NCBI GenBank assembly: GCA_023565505.1
Contig: JAIMBI010000011.1
Location: forward strand, 1-64,000
Source of the DNA: Actinomycetes bacterium
GTDB taxonomy: Bacteria; Bacillota; Sulfobacillia; Sulfobacillales; JAIMBI01
Direction: 5' to 3'
DNA length: 64,000 nt
A model generated the notes under the pieces. The model was not told where the DNA came from. It worked only from the letters and a program-made list of their open reading frames with translations, and ran no database searches. Below, one piece after another: positions 7,191 through 61,079 of this stretch (its first letter is position 1; every line of letters starts with the position of its first letter). Both the position numbers and the translations under genes were made by a program.

Positions 7191-8087
7191 ATGGCGGACA
7201 CGCGGGCGACGAACGGCGGCCAGGACGCGATCGGCGTCGTCGGAGCCGGGACGATGGGATCGGGCATCGCGGTGGTGGCGCTGCGGGCCGGATTCCCCAC
7301 CTGGGTGTGCGAAACCGACGCGGAGAACCTGGACGCCGGGATCGGACGCATCCGGGCGTTTCTCGACGGAAGCGTCCGGCGCGGCAAAATCACGGCGGCC
7401 GAACGCGACGAGATGCTGACGCGGCTGCACGGCACGACGGTGCTGGAGGACCTCGCATCCTGCCGCTACGTCATCGAGGCGGTCTACGAGGACGTCGAGG
7501 TCAAGCGCGCCCTCTTCCGACGCCTGCACGCGGTAGCGGCGCCGGACGCCCTGTTCTTGACGAATACGTCGACCTTGTCCGTGACGTCCATTGCGGCGTC
7601 CACCGGTCACGAGGAACGGGTCGTCGGCATGCATTTCTGCAATCCGGCGCCGCTCATGGCGCTGGTCGAGATCAGCCCGGGACTCCGCACGAGTCCCGCG
7701 GCGTTGGAGGAAGCCCAGGCGCTTGCCGGCCGGTTGGGCAAGACGTACGTCGTGACCCACGACACGCCCGGATTCATCTTGAACTACTTCCTGATTCCCT
7801 TCGAGAACGATTGCATCCGGGCGCTCGAGGAAGGCCTAGCGAGCGTGGAGGACATCGATCGGGCCGTCAAACTCGGGCTCGGCTATCCCATGGGGACGTT
7901 CGAGCTGTTGGACACGGTCGGCCTGGACGTCCATTACGCGGTCTCGATGCGCCTGTACGAGCAGCTGCACGACCCGCGGTTCGCGCCGCCGCCGCTGGTG
8001 CGGCGGATGATCGACGCGAATCGGCTGGGGCGCAAGACCGGACACGGCTTCTATCGCTACGAAAAAGGGAGGGTCTTCGGTGCCTGA
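7191..8087 (+). CDS. 3-hydroxyacyl-CoA dehydrogenase (first copy)
   Basis: About 298 residues with the NAD-binding GAGTMGSGIA motif near residue 16, the conserved HFCNPAPLMALVEI segment carrying the catalytic His, and the C-terminal domain ending in RKTGHGFYRY. It oxidises L-3-hydroxyacyl-CoA to 3-oxoacyl-CoA with NAD. ATG 7191 has a GAAAGGAG site. It overlaps the next, paralogous gene by 8 bases. As a stand-alone short-form enzyme it would serve beta-oxidation of ring-opened dicarboxyl-CoA or the ring hydroxyacyl-CoA. Confidence 0.9.
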   Translation: MADTRATNGGQDAIGVVGAGTMGSGIAVVALRAGFPTWVCETDAENLDAGIGRIRAFLDGSVRRGKITAAERDEMLTRLHGTTVLEDLASCRYVIEAVYEDVEVKRALFRRLHAVAAPDALFLTNTSTLSVTSIAASTGHEERVVGMHFCNPAPLMALVEISPGLRTSPAALEEAQALAGRLGKTYVVTHDTPGFILNYFLIPFENDCIRALEEGLASVEDIDRAVKLGLGYPMGTFELLDTVGLDVHYAVSMRLYEQLHDPRFAPPPLVRRMIDANRLGRKTGHGFYRYEKGRVFGA

Positions 8088-8982
8088 GTCCGAAACCCGC
8101 AACACTTCCCGAACGACCTGGCTCGTCGGCGTCGTGGGTCTGGGAACCATGGGGAGCGGCATCGCCCAGGTGGCGGCCGCGGCGGGCTTCCCGGTCGTCG
8201 GCGTGGAGACGTCGCGGGAGCGCGCCGAGGCGGGGCATCGACGCATCGCGGCCTTCCTCGAGCGCGGGATGGCGCGGGGGCGGGGGACGCCGGAAGAACG
8301 CGACCGCATCCTGAGCGCGATCACGACCACCGATCGGCTGACGGATCTTCGGCGCGCGGACATTGTCATCGAAGCGATCTACGAGGATCTCGCGGCCAAA
8401 CAGGCGCTCTTTCGCGAGCTGGACGCCGTTCTGCCGCGGGAAGCCTTGTTGGCCACCAACACGTCCGGGTTGACGGTTCACGCCATAGCCGGACCCCTCC
8501 TGCGGGTCCGCCGGATCGTCGGCCTGCACTTCTTCAACCCGGCCCCGCTGATGCCGCTCGTGGAGGTGGTTCGGCCCGCCGGGGCGGATCCCGAGACGGT
8601 AGCGGAAGCCGTGGCCTTCTGCCGGGCCCTCGGCAAGGAACCCGTCGTGGTCAAGGATCGGCCGGGATTTCTGGTCAACCGCCTGTTGATTCCGTACCTG
8701 AATCAGGCGGCCGATGCTTATGACCACGGTCTGGCCAGCCGGGAGGACCTCGACACGGCGGTGGAATTGGGCTTGGGCTACCCGATGGGACCCCTGAAGC
8801 TCCTGGACCGCATCGGCCTGGACGTGCATCTGGCGGCGACCGAGGCCATCTACGCCCAGACGTACCGGCCGGAATTCCGCCCGCCCGCCATCCTGCGGGA
8901 ACTGGTAGCACGGGGGTCGACCGGCAAGAAGAGCGGCTCGGGATTCTACGCGTACGACGGTCCGCCCGCAGGCGAAGCCTGA
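8080..8982 (+). CDS. 3-hydroxyacyl-CoA dehydrogenase (second copy)
   Basis: A 300-residue paralogue of the preceding protein, with GLGTMGSGIAQ, HFFNPAPLMPLVEVV and a C-terminal KKSGSGFYAY. Start GTG 8080 lies within the end of the first copy, so the two are translationally coupled. Tandem, clearly diverged copies suggest two different hydroxyacyl-CoA substrates in the same pathway, or a hetero-oligomer. Both have the catalytic His region and the full C-terminal domain. Confidence 0.9.
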   Translation: MPESETRNTSRTTWLVGVVGLGTMGSGIAQVAAAAGFPVVGVETSRERAEAGHRRIAAFLERGMARGRGTPEERDRILSAITTTDRLTDLRRADIVIEAIYEDLAAKQALFRELDAVLPREALLATNTSGLTVHAIAGPLLRVRRIVGLHFFNPAPLMPLVEVVRPAGADPETVAEAVAFCRALGKEPVVVKDRPGFLVNRLLIPYLNQAADAYDHGLASREDLDTAVELGLGYPMGPLKLLDRIGLDVHLAATEAIYAQTYRPEFRPPAILRELVARGSTGKKSGSGFYAYDGPPAGEA

Positions 8983-9167
8983 CACCGTTGCGGGATGCGA
9001 GGGCCACCGCGCGTTCTGGGGCCCCTCCCGGGTGCGAGGTCCCCCGCCGGGGGATCCGGGGATGCCCGCCCCTTGGCGGTGGCGGGGGATGCCCTAGGGG
9101 GCTTCGTGCGGGGGCGACGCCGGCGGGTCGAGGGCGGCGACAGGAAAGACGGCAAAGGAGAATCCAC

Positions 9168-53216: not shown

Positions 53217-54359
53217 ATGGACTTCGATCTGACGCCGGAGCAGGCGATGATCCGCGACACGGTGCGGGCGTTCGCGCAGGAGGTGGTCGCCCCCGGGGCG
53301 GCCGAACGGGACGAGACGGGGGAGATGCCCTTCGCCATCATGCGCCAGATGGGGGCGATGGGCCTGTTCGGCATCCCCTTCCCCGAGGAGGTGGGCGGCT
53401 CCGGCGGCGACACCGTGAGCTACGCCCTGGCGGTGGAGGAGATTGGACGGGTGGACGCCTCGCTCGGTCTGGGGTACGCCGCCCACGTCTCGCTCGGGTG
53501 CGCGCCGCTGGCCCTCTTCGGTACCCCCGCGCAGCAGCAGCGCTACCTCCTGCCGGCCATCCGGGGCGACTACCTGGCGGCCTTCGGCCTGACCGAGCCG
53601 GAGGCGGGATCCGACGCGGGGAGCACCCGGACGCGGGCCGAACGGGTCGAGGGGGGCTTCGTTCTCACCGGCACGAAGGTGTTCATCACCAACGCGGGCC
53701 ATGCCGGCTACATCGTCACCACGGCCCGGTACGGCGGCGGCCGGGGCATCTCCGCCTTCATCGTCCCCGCGGGGGTGGCGGGGCTCCAGGTCGTCTGCGC
53801 CTACAAGAAGCTCGGCATGCGTTCGTCCGAGACCTGCGAGGTACGCCTGGACGGCGTGCGCGTGGACGAGGACCACCTGCTGGGGCAGCCGGGGCAGGGG
53901 TTCGCGCAGTTCCTGGCGGTCCTGGACGGCGGGCGGATCAGCATCGGGGCGCTCGGCGTGGGCGTCGCCCAGGCGGCTCTCGACGCGGCGCTGGCCTATG
54001 CCGCCGAGCGGCGGCAGTTCGGGCGCCGCATCGCGGACTTCGAGGCCATCCAGTTCAAGCTGGCGGACATGGCGCTGGAGGTGGAGCTGGCCCGCACCAT
54101 GGTGCTCAAGGCCGCGTGGCTGAAGGACCAGCACCGGCCGTTCGGCACCGAGGCGGCCATGGCCAAGCTCTTCGCCTCGGAGGCCGCGGTACGCGCCGCG
54201 CTCCAGGCGATCCAGATCCACGGCGGCAACGGCTACATGCGGGACTTCCCGGTGGAGCGCTACCTGCGGGACGCCAAGCTGCTGGAGATCGGGGAGGGGA
54301 CGTCCGAGATCCAGCGGCTGGTGATCGCCCGGCGGCTCCTGGAGCGGTTGCCGACGTGA
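53217..54359 (+). CDS. Acyl-CoA dehydrogenase (isovaleryl/short-branched type)
   Basis: A 380-residue FAD dehydrogenase: [47 protein letters not shown], and [20 protein letters not shown] with the catalytic Glu. This is the position of yngJ in the Bacillus leucine-degradation-type operon. It probably oxidises a short or branched acyl-CoA, passing electrons to ETF. ATG 53217 follows GGGAGGCGAGG. Its stop overlaps the next GTG. Confidence 0.9.
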
Positions 54360-55291
54360 CGATCCTGGCCTACCTGGCCCGCCGGCCGGCGGGACACCCG
54401 GCGGCGCGGCTGTGGCAGGCGGCCCGGGCCCGCTGGGCGGTCCTGGCCGGGGCGGCGGAGCCGGTCCCGGTCTCCCGCGCCGATCCCGTGCTGTGGGTCG
54501 CGGCGTGGCTGGCGGGCCGGCCCGTGCGGTGGAGCCCCGCGGCCGGCCTGGGCGGTCTCGCGCCCTCGGCCCCGGCGGCCGGCGCCCCTCCGGGCGCGGA
54601 TCCCGCCGCGGCGGCGGTCGTCTGGCCGGCGGGCGTGGGCGAGCGGGTCTTCTCCCACGAGGCGGTGTGGGCGGCCATCGAGGACATTCACGCCCTCGGG
54701 GCCGCCGGCCGGGGACTGGCCGGCCCCGCCGGCTTCGTGCAGGCCGCGGCGGCGTGGCTGGCCGACCGACCGTTCGGATGGGGGGGCCGGCTCCGGCCGG
54801 AGGCGGAGGGCCTCTACACCGACGGGCAACGGCGCTTCCGCGCGGCGGATGCGCTGTTGGGCGTCTTCGCCCGGGAGGAGGCGGGCGCCTGGGTCACCGG
54901 TCCCCATACCCACTGGGACGCCGGGCGGGTGAAGAGCCGCCGGCTCTTCGACGGATGGTATCGGGCGGGAGGCGTGGAACCCGCCCGGTTCGAGGGTGGT
55001 TACTGGCGATACGAGCCGGACTCCGGGCCCGGGGCGGCGCCGGAGGCGGTCGACGGGAAGGAGCGAGGGACGAGGACGATGCAGGCCATCGTGGCGAGTC
55101 TGGCGGGAACCGTGTTCAAGGTGCTGGTCAAGCCCGGCGACACGGTGACGCCCGGGCAGGAAGTGGTGCGGCTGGAGTCCATGAAGATGGAGATCCCCGT
55201 GGAGGCGGAGGTCGGCGGGACCGTCCAGGAGGTCCTGGTCAGCGAGGGGGCCTTCGTCAACGAGGGCGACCCGCTCGTCATGCTCGGCTGA
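54356..55291 (+). CDS. Unknown N-terminal domain fused in frame to a biotin carboxyl carrier domain
   Basis: A 311-residue product from GTG 54356, which overlaps the preceding TGA. Residues 1-240 match no family I know; they contain an Ala/Gly-rich segment and a compact conserved-looking region ([59 protein letters not shown]). Residues 242-311 are a complete biotinyl domain with the ESMKMEIP acceptor Lys. There is no stop between them. In the corresponding Bacillus operon a biotin carboxylase occupies this place; no ATP-grasp motif is present here. Translation of the carrier alone from an internal ATG is also likely. Confidence 0.65.
55079..55291 (+). CDS. Biotin carboxyl carrier protein, internal start
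   Basis: The internal ATG 55079 is preceded by GGAAGGAGCGAGG and would yield a free 70-residue carrier, the size of stand-alone BCCPs such as Bacillus YngHB. The biotin Lys lies in [10 protein letters not shown]; the hairpin folds continue through [22 protein letters not shown]. The carrier ferries carboxybiotin to the carboxyltransferase encoded 13 bases downstream. It shares frame with the longer product above. Confidence 0.75.
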   Translation: MQAIVASLAGTVFKVLVKPGDTVTPGQEVVRLESMKMEIPVEAEVGGTVQEVLVSEGAFVNEGDPLVMLG

Positions 55292-55304: not shown

Positions 55305-56822
55305 ATGGACCCGAAGGCACTCGCCGCCGCGCGGGCGCGGGCGGAGGCGGGCGGACCGGCCCGCTACCACGCGAAGCTCCGGGAGGAGCAGAAGCTCCCG
55401 GTGCGGGAGCGGCTTTCGCTGCTGCTGGACCCGGGGTGGGTCGAGGACGGTCTCTTGGCGAGGAACGACGACCCGGAGCTGGCGGCCGACGGCGTGGTGA
55501 CGGTCGCGGGGACCATCGAGGGTCGGCCGGTGGTGGTGATGGCCAACGACCCCACGGTGAAGGCGGGGTCGTGGGGACCGCACACGGTGGAGAAGATCCT
55601 GCGCATTCAGGAGCGGGCCCTGGCCCACAACGTGCCCATCTTCTACCTGGTCGACTCGGCCGGGGCGCGCATCACCGACCAGGTGGCCATGTTCCCGGGC
55701 CGGCGGGGGGCGGGGCGCATCTTCTACAACCAAGTGAAGCTCTCCGGCCGGGTGCCCCAGATCTGCATCCTGTTCGGCCCCTCGGCGGCGGGCGGCGCGT
55801 ACATCCCGGCCTTCTGCGACGTGGTGATCATGGTCGAGGGCCATGCCTCCATGTACCTGGGGTCGCCCCGGATGGCGGAGATGGTCATCGGGGAGAAGGT
55901 CACGCTGGAGGAGATGGGCGGGGCGCGGATGCACTGCACCGTGAGCGGGTCGGGGGACCTGTTGGCGCCGGACGAGCCGACGGCGATCCGCTGGGCGCGG
56001 GAGTACTTCCGGTACATGCCCGACCACTGGGAGGCTGAGCCGCCGCGGACGGACTGGGCGCCGCCCGAGCCGGTGGACTGGGAGGGACTCATCCCGGCCA
56101 ACCAGAACGTGCCCTTCGACATCAAGACGCTCATCCGGGCGGTGGTGGACCGGGACTCGTTCTTCGAACTCAAGCCGCTCTGGGCCCCGGAGTTGGTGAT
56201 TGGGTTGGCGCGGCTCGAGGGGCAGGCGGTCGGGATCGTCGCGAACCAGTCGAAGGTCAAGGGCGGGGTGCTGTTCGTCGACTCGGCGGACAAGGCGGCG
56301 CGGTTCATCACGCTGTGCGACGCGTTCAACCTGCCGCTGGTGTTTTTGGCGGACGTGCCGGGGTTCATGATCGGGACCAAGGTGGAACGGGCGGGCATCA
56401 TCCGGCATGGGGCGAAGATGGTGGCCGCGGTGGCGACGGCGACGGTGCCGAAGATCTGCGTCGTGGTGCGCAAGGCATACGGGGCGGGGCTGTACGCGAT
56501 GGCGGGGCCGGCGTTCGAGCCGGACGCGGTGCTGGCGCTGCCGACGGCGCAGATTGCGGTGATGGGGCCGGAGGCGGCGGTCAACGCGGTGTACTACCAC
56601 CGCATCCAGGAGCTGGAGGGGGAGGCCCGGGCGGCGTTCGTCCGGCAGCGGCAGGAGGCGTACCGGCGGGACATCGACATCCTGCGGCTCGCGGCGGAGT
56701 TGGTGGTGGACGAGGTCATCCCGCCGGAACGGCTCCGGACCGAGTTGGTGACCCGGATCCGGTTGGCGCGGCACAAGAGCCGCGAATTCAGCCGACGGCG
56801 CCAGCCGGTGACGCCGGTCTGA
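55305..56822 (+). CDS. Acyl-CoA carboxylase, carboxyltransferase subunit
   Basis: A 505-residue fused alpha-beta carboxyltransferase of the propionyl-/methylcrotonyl-CoA type. The N-terminal crotonase-fold half has YLVDSAGARI and FGPSAAGGAYIPAFCD; the C-terminal half has ANQSKVKGGVLFVDSADKAARF, LADVPGFMIGTKVE and AYGAGLYAMAGPAFEP. It carboxylates an acyl-CoA from carboxybiotin. MVEGHASMYLGSP suggests substrates similar to methylcrotonyl-CoA, but specificity cannot be read reliably. The partner biotin carboxylase is missing from this operon. Confidence 0.9.
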   Translation: MDPKALAAARARAEAGGPARYHAKLREEQKLPVRERLSLLLDPGWVEDGLLARNDDPELAADGVVTVAGTIEGRPVVVMANDPTVKAGSWGPHTVEKILRIQERALAHNVPIFYLVDSAGARITDQVAMFPGRRGAGRIFYNQVKLSGRVPQICILFGPSAAGGAYIPAFCDVVIMVEGHASMYLGSPRMAEMVIGEKVTLEEMGGARMHCTVSGSGDLLAPDEPTAIRWAREYFRYMPDHWEAEPPRTDWAPPEPVDWEGLIPANQNVPFDIKTLIRAVVDRDSFFELKPLWAPELVIGLARLEGQAVGIVANQSKVKGGVLFVDSADKAARFITLCDAFNLPLVFLADVPGFMIGTKVERAGIIRHGAKMVAAVATATVPKICVVVRKAYGAGLYAMAGPAFEPDAVLALPTAQIAVMGPEAAVNAVYYHRIQELEGEARAAFVRQRQEAYRRDIDILRLAAELVVDEVIPPERLRTELVTRIRLARHKSREFSRRRQPVTPV

Positions 56823-56841: not shown

Positions 56842-57723
56842 ATGGACTGGCCCGATGCGGTGGTCCTGCGCGACGTGTCGCCCCGCCACGGCCTTGCGGC
56901 CGTGGCCGAGCCGGTGGACACGGCGGTCAAGGCGGCGCTGGTGGACGGCCTGGCCCAGGCGGGCCTGGGGCGGGTCGAGGTCACCGGGTTCGTCGACCCC
57001 GCCCGCTACCCCCAGTTCGCCGACGCGGCGGACCTGATGGCCCGGATCCCCCGCCGCTCCCACACCACCTACTCCGCCTGGGTGCTCGACGCGGCCGGGG
57101 CGGAGCGGGCGTTCGCCCTGCGGCTCGACGAGGTGACGGTGGGGCTTGGGGCCACCGAGACGTACCAGCGCGGTCTCGGCGCCGCGGGTCTCGCGGAGGC
57201 GTTGGTGGCGCTGGAGGGCATCATCCAGGCGGGGCGCGCGCGGTCGGTGCCGGTCGGCGTCCGGCTGGCCTGCGCGTTCTCGTGCCCCTACGAGGGCCAC
57301 GTAGCCGAGGCCACGGTCATGGAGCTGGCCTGGCGGCTCTACGGCATCGGGGTGCGGGAGATCACCCTGGACGACACCACCGGGCGGGCGGAGCCCGGGG
57401 CCGTCCAGAGCCGCGTGCGCATGCTCCGGACCAACCTGCCGGGGCTGCTCGTGGGGCTGTCGCTGCGCGACACCTACGGCACCGCGCTGGCGAACATGCT
57501 CGCCGGCCTGGACGCCGGGGTCAGCCACTTCGACGTCGCCCTGGGCGGCATCGGCCCCCAGGGCGGCGTCCTGGCCACCGAAGACGCGGTGTTCCTCCTG
57601 CGGGCCATGGGGGTCAGCACGCGGATCGACTTCGACCACGTGCTCGCGGTGGGGGATGTGCTGGAGCGCGAGGTCCAACCCCTGCCCTCGCGGGCGCGGC
57701 GGGCGCACCGCTGCTCAGGGTAG
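56842..57723 (+). CDS. HMG-CoA lyase homologue lacking the metal ligands
   Basis: A 293-residue TIM-barrel protein aligned along its length with 3-hydroxy-3-methylglutaryl-CoA lyase (VEVTGFVDPARYPQFADA, CAFSCPYEGHV, LRDTYGTALANMLAGLDAGVSHFDVALGG, VLATEDAVFLLRAMG). Key residues are changed: PRDGLQ is PRHGLA, HCHDTYG is SLRDTYG, and GGCPYAxGASGNLATED is shortened to GGIGPQGGVLATED, losing the catalytic Cys and the ligand Asn. It is therefore unlikely to perform the normal lyase reaction. ATG 56842 follows GGGAGGCGACGGGAG. Confidence 0.75.
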   Translation: MDWPDAVVLRDVSPRHGLAAVAEPVDTAVKAALVDGLAQAGLGRVEVTGFVDPARYPQFADAADLMARIPRRSHTTYSAWVLDAAGAERAFALRLDEVTVGLGATETYQRGLGAAGLAEALVALEGIIQAGRARSVPVGVRLACAFSCPYEGHVAEATVMELAWRLYGIGVREITLDDTTGRAEPGAVQSRVRMLRTNLPGLLVGLSLRDTYGTALANMLAGLDAGVSHFDVALGGIGPQGGVLATEDAVFLLRAMGVSTRIDFDHVLAVGDVLEREVQPLPSRARRAHRCSG

Positions 57724-57756: not shown

Positions 57757-59412
57757 GTGGAACCGATCTGGATGCGCTATTGGCCCCAGGGGGTACCGAC
57801 CACGCTGGTCGTGCCGGACCGGACGGTGGCGGCCGCCGTGTCCGACCGGGGGCGGGCGGACCCCGACCGCCCCGCGGTGATCTATTACGGGCGGCGCATC
57901 ACGTACGGCGAGCTGGCCGAGCAGGTGGAGCGGGCGGCGGGAGCGCTCGCGGCCCAGGGCGTCGCGCCGGGGGACCGCGTGCTACTCTTCATGGGCAACA
58001 CGCCCGCCTTCGTCGTCGGCTACCTCGCCGCCCACGCGCTCGGGGCCGTCGTGGTGGCCGCCAACCCCATGTTCAAGGCCGACGAGTTGGCCCACGAACT
58101 GGACGACAGCGGCGCCCGGGTCCTGGTGGCCGACGCGGGGCTCGCCCCGGTCGCCGAGGCCGTGCTGGCGGAGCGGCCGGGCGTCTTCGCGGTCTACGCC
58201 GACCTGCGGGCGTTCCTGCCGCCGACCCCCTTCCCGCGCCCGCACCCGGACATGCTGCGCTCGGCCGCCATCCCGCCGGGCCGGCCGGACTTTGCGGCGT
58301 GGATCGCGCGGGCGGACCGGCTCCGCCCGCGGCCTGTGGACGTGGAACGCACGGTGGCCCTGATCCAGTACACGTCCGGCACCACCGGGGTGCCCAAAGG
58401 GGCCGTCATCCTCCAGCGGAGCCTCCTGGCCAACGTGGAGGGGTCCCGCCTCTGGACCCGGGCCGGCCCCGAGTCGGTGCACCTCGCGGTGTTGCCGCTC
58501 TTCCACGTCACCGGCATGGTCCACTCGTTCCTCATGCCCCTCCTGGCGGGCGGGACGATGGTGCTCCTGACGCGATTCGAGACCGACACGTTCATCGAGG
58601 CGCTCCAGCACTGGCGGGCGACCCATTGGGTGGGGATCGCGACGATGAACGTCGCGGTGGTCAACCACCCCCGCATCCGCGACTACCGCCTTGACTCGCT
58701 CGCATTCGCCATGTCCGGCGGCGCGCCCATCCCGGTCCCGGTGCTGGAGCGTTTCCGCGAGCTGACGGGGGTCACGCTGGTCGAGGGTTACGGTCTCAGC
58801 GAGACCATCTCCCAGGTGACCGTCAACCCGCCGGACCGGCCCAAGCTCGGGTCGGTGGGGATCCCGGTCCACGGCGTGGATCTGCGCATCACCGCCGTGG
58901 GCCGGTTCGACGAGGAGCTTCCGGTGGGCAGCACCGGCGAGATCTGGGTGCGGGGGCCGCAGGTCATGCAGGGCTACTTCGGCCGCCCGGAGGCGACCCG
59001 GGAGGTCCTGCGGCCGGACGGGTGGTTCGACACCGGCGACCTGGGCTTCGTAGACGAAGAGGGGTACCTCCACATAGCCGGGCGGAGCAAGGAACTCATC
59101 AAGGCCTCGGGCTACTCCGTGTTCCCCGCGGAGGTGGAGAACCTGCTCTACCGCCATCCCGCCGTCGCCGAGGCGGCGGTCATCGGGGTGCCGGATCCCT
59201 ACCGCGGGGAGACGGTCAAGGCGGTGGTGGTACTCAAACCCGGGGCGGCCGTCACCCCGGAGGACCTCGTGGCCTGGGCGCACGCCAACATGGCGGCGTA
59301 CAAGGCGCCCCGGATCGTGGAGATTCGCGAGGCGCTCCCCAAGACCGCCTCCGGCAAGATCCTCAAACGCATCCTGATCGAGGAGGAGCGCAGGCGGGCG
59401 GGGCTCGCGTGA
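57757..59412 (+). CDS. Acyl-CoA ligase (FadD/YngI-like)
   Basis: A 551-residue ANL ligase with intact motifs: QYTSGTTGVPKGAVI, EGYGLSETISQV, FDTGDLGFVDEEGYLHIAGRSKELIKASGYSVFP and the terminal TASGKILKRIL with the adenylating Lys. It activates a medium-chain or branched fatty acid and corresponds by place to yngI. GTG 57757 follows GGGAGGGAGCG. It probably feeds the acyl-CoA dehydrogenase and carboxylase encoded upstream. Confidence 0.88.
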   Translation: MEPIWMRYWPQGVPTTLVVPDRTVAAAVSDRGRADPDRPAVIYYGRRITYGELAEQVERAAGALAAQGVAPGDRVLLFMGNTPAFVVGYLAAHALGAVVVAANPMFKADELAHELDDSGARVLVADAGLAPVAEAVLAERPGVFAVYADLRAFLPPTPFPRPHPDMLRSAAIPPGRPDFAAWIARADRLRPRPVDVERTVALIQYTSGTTGVPKGAVILQRSLLANVEGSRLWTRAGPESVHLAVLPLFHVTGMVHSFLMPLLAGGTMVLLTRFETDTFIEALQHWRATHWVGIATMNVAVVNHPRIRDYRLDSLAFAMSGGAPIPVPVLERFRELTGVTLVEGYGLSETISQVTVNPPDRPKLGSVGIPVHGVDLRITAVGRFDEELPVGSTGEIWVRGPQVMQGYFGRPEATREVLRPDGWFDTGDLGFVDEEGYLHIAGRSKELIKASGYSVFPAEVENLLYRHPAVAEAAVIGVPDPYRGETVKAVVVLKPGAAVTPEDLVAWAHANMAAYKAPRIVEIREALPKTASGKILKRILIEEERRRAGLA

Positions 59413-59483
59413 CGAGCCCGGGCTGGATGACACCAGACGGGAAGGGAGGCCGGGCCGGCGCCGCGGGCGACCGGCCGTGACGC

Positions 59484-61079
59484 ATGTGGACCTTGGTACG
59501 GGGGACCATTCTGACGTTGGAACCGGGGGCTCCGGAGGCCGAGTGGATGCTCGTCTTCGGCGACCGCGTCGCGGCCGTCGGCCGCGGCGACCCGCCGCCC
59601 TGGCCGGTGCCGCTCGCGGCCACCTGGGACTTCCGGCCGCACGCCGTCCTGCCGGGTTTCCACGACGCCCACAACCACCTGCTCGCCTTCGGCCTGAAGC
59701 AACGGGAGGCGGACCTCCGCGGGACGCGCAGCCTCGCGGAGCTGTTCGACCGGATCCGGCGCCACGACCGGGGCCAGCCGGTGGTACGGGCTAACGGCTA
59801 CAACCAGGACGACCTCGCGGAGCGACGCCACCCGACGCGGGCCGAGCTGGACCGAGTCGTCCCCGACCGGCCGCTGGTGGTCGCGCACACCTCGGGGCAC
59901 ATGGTGGTCGTCAACAGCCGGGCCTTGGAGCGCGCAGGCATCGGCCCCGCCACGCCCGACCCGGAGGGCGGGCGCATCGTGCGGGACGCCGCCGGCGTGC
60001 CCACCGGCCTGCTGCAGGAGAACGCCCAGCAGCTGGTCGAGGCGGCGTTGCCCCGCCCCACGCGCGCGGAGATGGCGGCGGCCATCGCCGAGGCCTCGCG
60101 CACCTACGCGGGCTGGGGCCTGGTGGCGACCCAGGAAGCTGGGGTCGGGTGGTACGGCCCGGACGAGCTGGCCGCCTGGCAGGAGGCCCGGGCCACGGGC
60201 GGCTTGGTCACGCGGGCCGTGCTGATGCCCGACGTGCGCACGCTCGACTGGGCGGCCGAGGACCGTCCGCTCCTGTGGCAGGGCTTGGCTAGCGGGTTCG
60301 GGGACCTGAGCCTGGCGCTGGGCCCGGTGAAGATCTTCGCCGACGGGTCGCTCATCGGGCGGACGGCGGCGCTGGAGGAGCCGTTCGAGGGCGCCGGGCC
60401 GGACGCGCGGGGGATGCTGGTCTGGCCCGAGACGGAGCTGGCGCGGATGGTGGCCCGCCTGCACCGCGAAGGCTTCCAGATCGCCGTGCACGCCATCGGC
60501 GACCGGGCCATCCGGGTCGTGCTGGACGCCTACGAGGCGGCCCAGGCCGCGGTCCCCCGGCCCGACCCGCGCCATCGGGTGGAGCACGCCGGCGTGTTGC
60601 CGGACGGGCTGCTGGAGCGCATGCGCCGCCTGGGGGTGATCCCCGTCGGCCAGCAGCACTTCATCGGCGAACTCGGCGACAGCATGCGCGCGGCCGTGGG
60701 CGACCGGCGGATCCGCTGGACGTACCGGCAGAAGAGCATCCTGCGGCAGGGGCTGGTGCTGGCGGGCAGCTCGGACTGCTTCGTGGTGGACGGTCGGCCT
60801 CTTTTGGGCATCCACGACGCGGTGAACCAGACCACCGCGGCGGGGCGGCCCTACGCCCCGGAGGAAGCGCTCACCGTGGAGGAGGCTCTCCGGGCCTACA
60901 CGTGGGGTTCGGCCTACGTCGTCCGGCGGGAGCGGGAGATGGGCACCCTGGAGCCGGGCAAGCTGGCCGACTTCGTCGTGCTCGACCGGAATCCGCTGGC
61001 GGTGGATCCTGCCGCCATCCGGAACCTCCGAGTCCTGGCGACGTTCGTGGGCGGCCGGCCGGTCTTCCGGGCCGACTGA
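59484..61079 (+). CDS. YtcJ-like metal-dependent amidohydrolase
   Basis: A 531-residue amidohydrolase. VLPGFHDAHNHLLAFGL holds the first metal ligands (HxH after the PGF-D-H motif), VKIFADGSLIGR the central acidic site, FQIAVHAIGDRAI and HRVEHAG further His ligands, and LAGSSDCFV the final Asp. The C-terminal ETGTLEPGKLADFVVLD-type segment (EMGTLEPGKLADFVVLD) is standard. It hydrolyses amide or related bonds; substrates of YtcJ homologues are mostly unknown. It may release an acid that the preceding ligase activates. Confidence 0.85.
   Translation: MWTLVRGTILTLEPGAPEAEWMLVFGDRVAAVGRGDPPPWPVPLAATWDFRPHAVLPGFHDAHNHLLAFGLKQREADLRGTRSLAELFDRIRRHDRGQPVVRANGYNQDDLAERRHPTRAELDRVVPDRPLVVAHTSGHMVVVNSRALERAGIGPATPDPEGGRIVRDAAGVPTGLLQENAQQLVEAALPRPTRAEMAAAIAEASRTYAGWGLVATQEAGVGWYGPDELAAWQEARATGGLVTRAVLMPDVRTLDWAAEDRPLLWQGLASGFGDLSLALGPVKIFADGSLIGRTAALEEPFEGAGPDARGMLVWPETELARMVARLHREGFQIAVHAIGDRAIRVVLDAYEAAQAAVPRPDPRHRVEHAGVLPDGLLERMRRLGVIPVGQQHFIGELGDSMRAAVGDRRIRWTYRQKSILRQGLVLAGSSDCFVVDGRPLLGIHDAVNQTTAAGRPYAPEEALTVEEALRAYTWGSAYVVRREREMGTLEPGKLADFVVLDRNPLAVDPAAIRNLRVLATFVGGRPVFRAD

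Follow-up and report, generated by a model that had tools for sequence, protein, structure and literature searches.

An HMG-CoA lyase-like gene in a carboxylase operon

The window analysed here, a stretch of 64,000 nucleotides, contains a gene for an HMG-CoA lyase (HMGL)-like protein that follows acyl-CoA dehydrogenase and carboxylase genes and precedes two further genes on the same strand. The features of this locus are as follows.

53217..54359, + strand: acyl-CoA dehydrogenase (ACAD), opening the conserved block, 74-77% identity with orthologues of the family (profile and synteny searches)
54356..55078, + strand: ORF of no assigned family, fast-evolving, in a conserved position and in frame with BCCP without a stop (synteny)
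55079..55291, + strand: biotin carboxyl carrier protein (BCCP), 70 aa (ORF, synteny)
55305..56822, + strand: acyl-CoA carboxyltransferase (CT) subunit, 76-78% identical to family orthologues (profile and synteny searches)
56842..57723, + strand: HMGL-like gene without metal ligands, 293 aa (ORF, profile searches, alignment)
57757..59412, + strand: acyl-CoA ligase directly 3' of the HMGL-like gene, absent beside its orthologues (profile and synteny searches)
59484..61079, + strand: amidohydrolase, downstream, absent from the loci of relatives (profile and synteny searches)

The HMGL-like gene presents an intact reading frame of 293 codons, with an ATG start, a TAG stop and no frameshift, and a GGGAGG-type ribosome-binding site lies immediately 5' of it. 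Its GC3 (0.966) is like that of its neighbours, and its codon-position GC is normal. The encoded protein matches the HMGL-like TIM barrel (PF00682) over its length with 96.7 bits against a cut-off of 29, and HMG-CoA lyases are its nearest solved structures both by sequence and by fold. With NF004283, the HMG-CoA lyase model of NCBIfam, by contrast, it scores 219.5 bits, below the cut-off of 246, whereas its canonical orthologues reach 341-346 bits.

The gene order ACAD, uncharacterised ORF, BCCP, CT and HMGL is shared by six of six sampled family members (with ACAD beyond the contig end in one of them), and the same block was detected in the sampled members of the order's other family, where divergence puts the ORF that separates ACAD from BCCP out of reach of tblastn. 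The acyl-CoA ligase and the amidohydrolase (57757-61079, +) are appended to the operon in this lineage only, and searches with the ligase returned no match at E <= 1e-80 in the family's other genomes.

The ORF that lies between ACAD and BCCP (window 54356-55078, +; L037-L050) evolves fast, occupies a conserved operon position throughout the order and has no Pfam match at E 10. A motif in its C-terminal region, VRG..xxDGyW..G...P...GGWF, gives a weak acyl-CoA ligase match (MenE, E 0.05), and profile comparison of this motif with acyl-CoA ligases yields an E of 8e-4 over 32 columns at a probability of only 24%, hinting at a putative degenerate ligase fragment. The ORF and BCCP (54356-55291, +) share one frame with no stop between them, and their translation as a fusion is therefore possible; among the relatives checked, the open frame preceding BCCP extends for no more than 48 codons.

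Replacement of the metal site

Residues were mapped by alignment to human HMGCL, in which the catalytic residues are Arg41, Glu72, Tyr167 and Cys266 and the Mg2+ ligands Asp42, His233, His235 and Asn275, with the metal ligands being essential (PMC6941031). The D42A/H233A variant serves as an enzyme-dead human mutant (PMC10119270). The alignment located the corresponding elements in the window as follows.

56884..56889, + strand: PRHG, with Arg15 (Arg41) kept and His16 replacing metal ligand Asp42
56977..56979, + strand: Glu46, equivalent of catalytic Glu72, kept
57460..57468, + strand: Ser207-Leu208-Arg209, replacing metal-binding His233-x-His235
57544..57585, + strand: shortened catalytic loop GGIGPQGGVLATED, with a six-residue in-frame deletion and no Cys, and Val243 replacing metal ligand Asn275

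All four Mg2+ ligands are hence changed (Asp42 to His16, His233 to Ser207, His235 to Arg209 and Asn275 to Val243). The catalytic loop comprises 14 residues (GGIGPQGGVLATED) in the HMGL-like protein against 20 (GGIGGSPFSPGAGGNLATED) in its orthologues, Cys266 has no equivalent, and Tyr167 is replaced by Arg141. The equivalents of Arg41 (R15), Glu72 (E46) and Asp204 (D178) are kept. These results agree with an initial annotation, made from the sequence alone, which had reported the conversion of PRDG to PRHG and of the HxHDTYG pair to SxRDTYG, and the change of every metal ligand in a protein retaining the signatures of the fold. Replacements unmentioned in that annotation affect the equivalents of Q45, S75, N109, K137 and N138, and the residues lost from the former substrate region have mostly given way to small or apolar ones (A19, V21, G49, G103, G111, L112).

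With residues that are essential to catalysis in its family missing, the protein qualifies, as judged from its sequence, as a putative pseudoenzyme. The retained equivalents of Arg41, Glu72 and Asp204 count against a dead site, since their conservation is not required once all activity is gone. Together with the fold, those of Arg41 and Glu72 could also speak for a protein that is still an ordinary divalent-metal HMG-CoA lyase, but the change of all four ligands and of the catalytic loop, in a family whose characterised members require the metal (PMC6941031), makes this explanation extremely improbable.

The same residues can be read as those of a neofunctionalised, metal-independent enzyme, in which Arg209, His16, Asp177 and Tyr212 would form a new polar site with the retained Arg15, Glu46 and Asp178, and Arg209 would take over the electrostatic role of the metal on a different substrate. 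In line with this proposal, charged or ionisable residues (H16, R209) occupy former metal positions, D177 lies beside D178, R15, E46 and D178 are kept, and a new acyl-CoA ligase and an amidohydrolase are present downstream in this lineage only. The small and apolar replacements in the former substrate region and the shortening of the substrate loop argue against it, as does the fact that this new set of residues was seen in no relative. We consider such an enzyme unlikely, and new chemistry less likely than the retention of a dead enzyme in some other role.

Orthologues and the origin of the loss

The initial annotation had proposed to look for conservation of the altered residues in close relatives. 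Within the order, 28 of 28 homologues sampled (L007-L034) had a complete set of metal ligands. Across a sample of genomes from the order (42), the class (154) and the phylum (399), loss of the metal site was detected in this genome alone, the altered site being read in a single genome of the genus. Searches of these 42, 154 and 399 genomes yielded no closer relative of the HMGL-like protein, and a contig scan for other metal-less relatives returned only one distant canonical enzyme.

The operon HMGLs examined in the order (L007-L034) carry Ser at the position of catalytic Cys266 (loop GGIGGSPFSPGAGGN) and keep all metal ligands, and by their sequences appear to constitute an order-level Cys-less HMGL variant. 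Because Ser already occupies this position in each of the operon orthologues examined in the order, the loss of Cys predates the window gene. The initial description of the glycine loop as shortened and devoid of Cys and Asn is thus accurate for the protein itself, but only the deletion and the loss of the metal ligands are specific to this gene.

The phylogenetic tree places the window protein among the orthologues of its own family (95/96), together with those of the nearest genus (94/89). This grouping, the kept operon position and the canonical homologues therefore indicate a resident gene that changed in place, and the first two rule out horizontal replacement of the resident gene. In-frame alignment throughout and a normal GC3 speak against a frameshifted stretch or assembly artefact as the source of the changes. 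More broadly, the fragmentation of the assembly into 49 contigs and its estimated contamination of 6.6% could suggest an error of sequencing or assembly, or a contig that is a contaminant, but the changes run in frame across the whole gene at a normal GC3, the neighbours show family-level identity, and trees place both the gene and those around it in the family to which the genome belongs, leaving very little probability for such an origin.

Rate and mode of evolution

ACAD, BCCP and CT are 74-80% identical to their family orthologues, much like the orthologues among themselves. The HMGL-like protein, in turn, is 48-52% identical to its family orthologues, against an expected 66-68%. On a fixed tree of the neighbours, the terminal branch measures 1.155 for HMGL versus 0.249 for CT and 0.255 for ACAD. 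Among these neighbours, the acceleration is confined to the HMGL-like gene.

A codon branch model purpose-written for the branch of the HMGL-like gene rejected omega = 1 by 13.3 log units, with a best omega of 0.07; because synonymous sites are saturated, this result covers the whole branch and not its latest part. The corresponding values for two neighbour genes were 0.012 and 0.008. Among positions that are hydrophobic in all orthologues, 93% are still hydrophobic, compared with 72 +/- 4% in a neutral simulation; of the invariant polar positions, 49% are retained, compared with 47 +/- 7%. Neutral evolution over the whole branch is ruled out by the codon branch model and the hydrophobic retention.

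The main rival explanation is early non-functionalisation, in which a redundant lyase would have come under relaxed selection, leaving a functionless gene that drifts to loss. Orthologues in the order examined retain the metal site, as this explanation would have it, and about 100-140 late neutral substitutions would suffice for the observed identity, with a probability of escaping stops of 0.09-0.20. Normal divergence followed by a late neutral phase was simulated and assessed in four tests. These simulations predicted retention of 67-76% of invariant polar positions, and in none of the four did a simulated value fall below the observed 49%; for hydrophobic positions they predicted 84-90% versus the 93% seen (P 0.00-0.17, depending on the starting sequence). 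The hydrophobic excess and the escape from stops are the weaker tests, as the excess is modest at these P values and the escape probability reaches 0.09-0.20.

Location of the losses and predicted structure

On the catalytic face of the barrel, the HMGL-like protein has lost 18 of 27 invariant polar residues, versus 2 of 12 elsewhere (Fisher p = 0.006, an optimistic value because the boundaries of the face, set from the secondary structure of an AlphaFold model, were drawn after the list of changed residues was seen). This concentration argues against a functionless gene drifting to loss, but selection for new chemistry would likewise produce an excess of change there. The AlphaFold model of the HMGL-like protein has a pLDDT of 95.1, against 95.5 for a canonical orthologue, and a TM of 0.96 to the HMG-CoA lyase of B. 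subtilis (1YDO). The loop is modelled as a short ordered turn (block pLDDT 94), compared with a flexible one in the orthologue (block pLDDT 78).

The initial annotation had named canonical orthologues, with this copy merely decaying, as one of two outcomes that would refute its proposal. The orthologues do have a canonical metal site, but decay fits poorly with the intact, unshifted 293-codon frame, the normal ribosome-binding site and codon-position composition, the kept core and the location of the losses.

Other lyase-like genes in the genome

By these searches, five of the six other family genomes encode a single HMGL-like protein, the operon copy, and the genome analysed here encodes two more. 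These two divergent genes lie at 7971-9002 (-) of L052 and at 8113-9039 (+) of L053. L003 (contig C3) is near genes for a class III CoA-transferase and an IclR regulator; its product presents the HxH pair and the Cys loop, with Asp42 changed to Glu and Glu72 to Gln. L004 (contig C40) lies near a GntR gene, ABC-transporter genes and an HpcH/HpaI gene, and its product has the HxH pair and the Asp, a longer loop and Gly in place of the Cys. HpcH/HpaI genes number four in this genome versus 0-3 in its relatives, and in M. tuberculosis the HMG-CoA step of leucine catabolism is the work of an HpcH/HpaI enzyme (PMC6689899). Searches of the genome also found one biotin carboxylase (PF02785) and five carboxyltransferase genes (contigs C5, C9, C17, C30, C40 and C6); one carboxylase subunit may therefore serve several carboxyltransferases.

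Redundancy is thus available in this genome, and the two extra HMGL-like genes possibly permitted the loss in the operon HMGL, for which they or the HpcH/HpaI genes might compensate. The same two HMGL-like genes and four HpcH/HpaI lyases, with the M. tuberculosis precedent, favour early non-functionalisation, which, weighed against the simulations and the focused losses, we regard as a serious but minority possibility.

A candidate pseudoenzyme retained in its operon

The explanation that we moderately favour is that of a catalytically dead pseudoenzyme, with its fold kept, retained in the operon for a non-catalytic role. The vertically inherited operon HMGL of the family would have lost, within the lineage of this genus, its metal centre, its substrate loop and most conserved polar residues of the catalytic face, while the TIM-barrel fold would have remained under selection. 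The protein would still be made from the carboxylase operon and could partner the enzymes encoded there, for instance in a structural or regulatory capacity. If the carboxylated, hydrated product of the operon still needs cleavage, the two HMGL-like and four HpcH/HpaI genes could supply it. Among the alternatives raised in the initial annotation (a pseudoenzyme, a binding subunit or a lyase with another mechanism), the kept fold and the selective loss on the catalytic face favour the pseudoenzyme; the single-genome basis and the saturated synonymous sites count against one that has been kept.

The protein resembles characterised HMG-CoA lyases (HMGCL, LiuE, YngG, MvaB; PDB 1YDO, 2FTP, 2CW6) in fold (TM about 0.95), sequence (30-32% identity), length, the Arg41, Glu72 and Asp204 equivalents and its place in an acyl-CoA dehydrogenase/carboxylase operon. 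It differs from them in its replaced Asp, His-x-His and Asn ligands, the missing catalytic Cys, a loop six residues shorter and a degraded ASETHNxKN motif. The operon HMGLs of the order with Ser for Cys266 are its direct orthologues, with 41-52% identity and the same operon position where context was read, but they keep PRDG, HxHD and GGN, and hence all metal ligands, as well as a full-length loop (SPFSPGAGGN). Loss of ligands in a kept fold is also known from metal-ligand-deficient pseudoenzymes in other families of metalloenzymes, such as inactive metallopeptidase homologues (PMC11266112). A literature search pairing 'hydroxymethylglutaryl-CoA lyase' with 'pseudoenzyme' found no inactive HMG-CoA lyase homologue.

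HMG-CoA lyases, like the synthases and carboxyltransferases related to them, depend on a single metal site. An orthologue that was inherited vertically and from which this whole site is gone, with fold and operon place kept, would represent a natural experiment in the conversion of a metabolic enzyme into a pseudoenzyme. Should the improbable metal-independent enzyme prove true instead, it would be a member of the metal-dependent HMGL family in which Arg and His replace the metal centre. The window gene should not be annotated as an HMG-CoA lyase, and leucine-type degradation by this operon should therefore not be assumed to be complete in this lineage.
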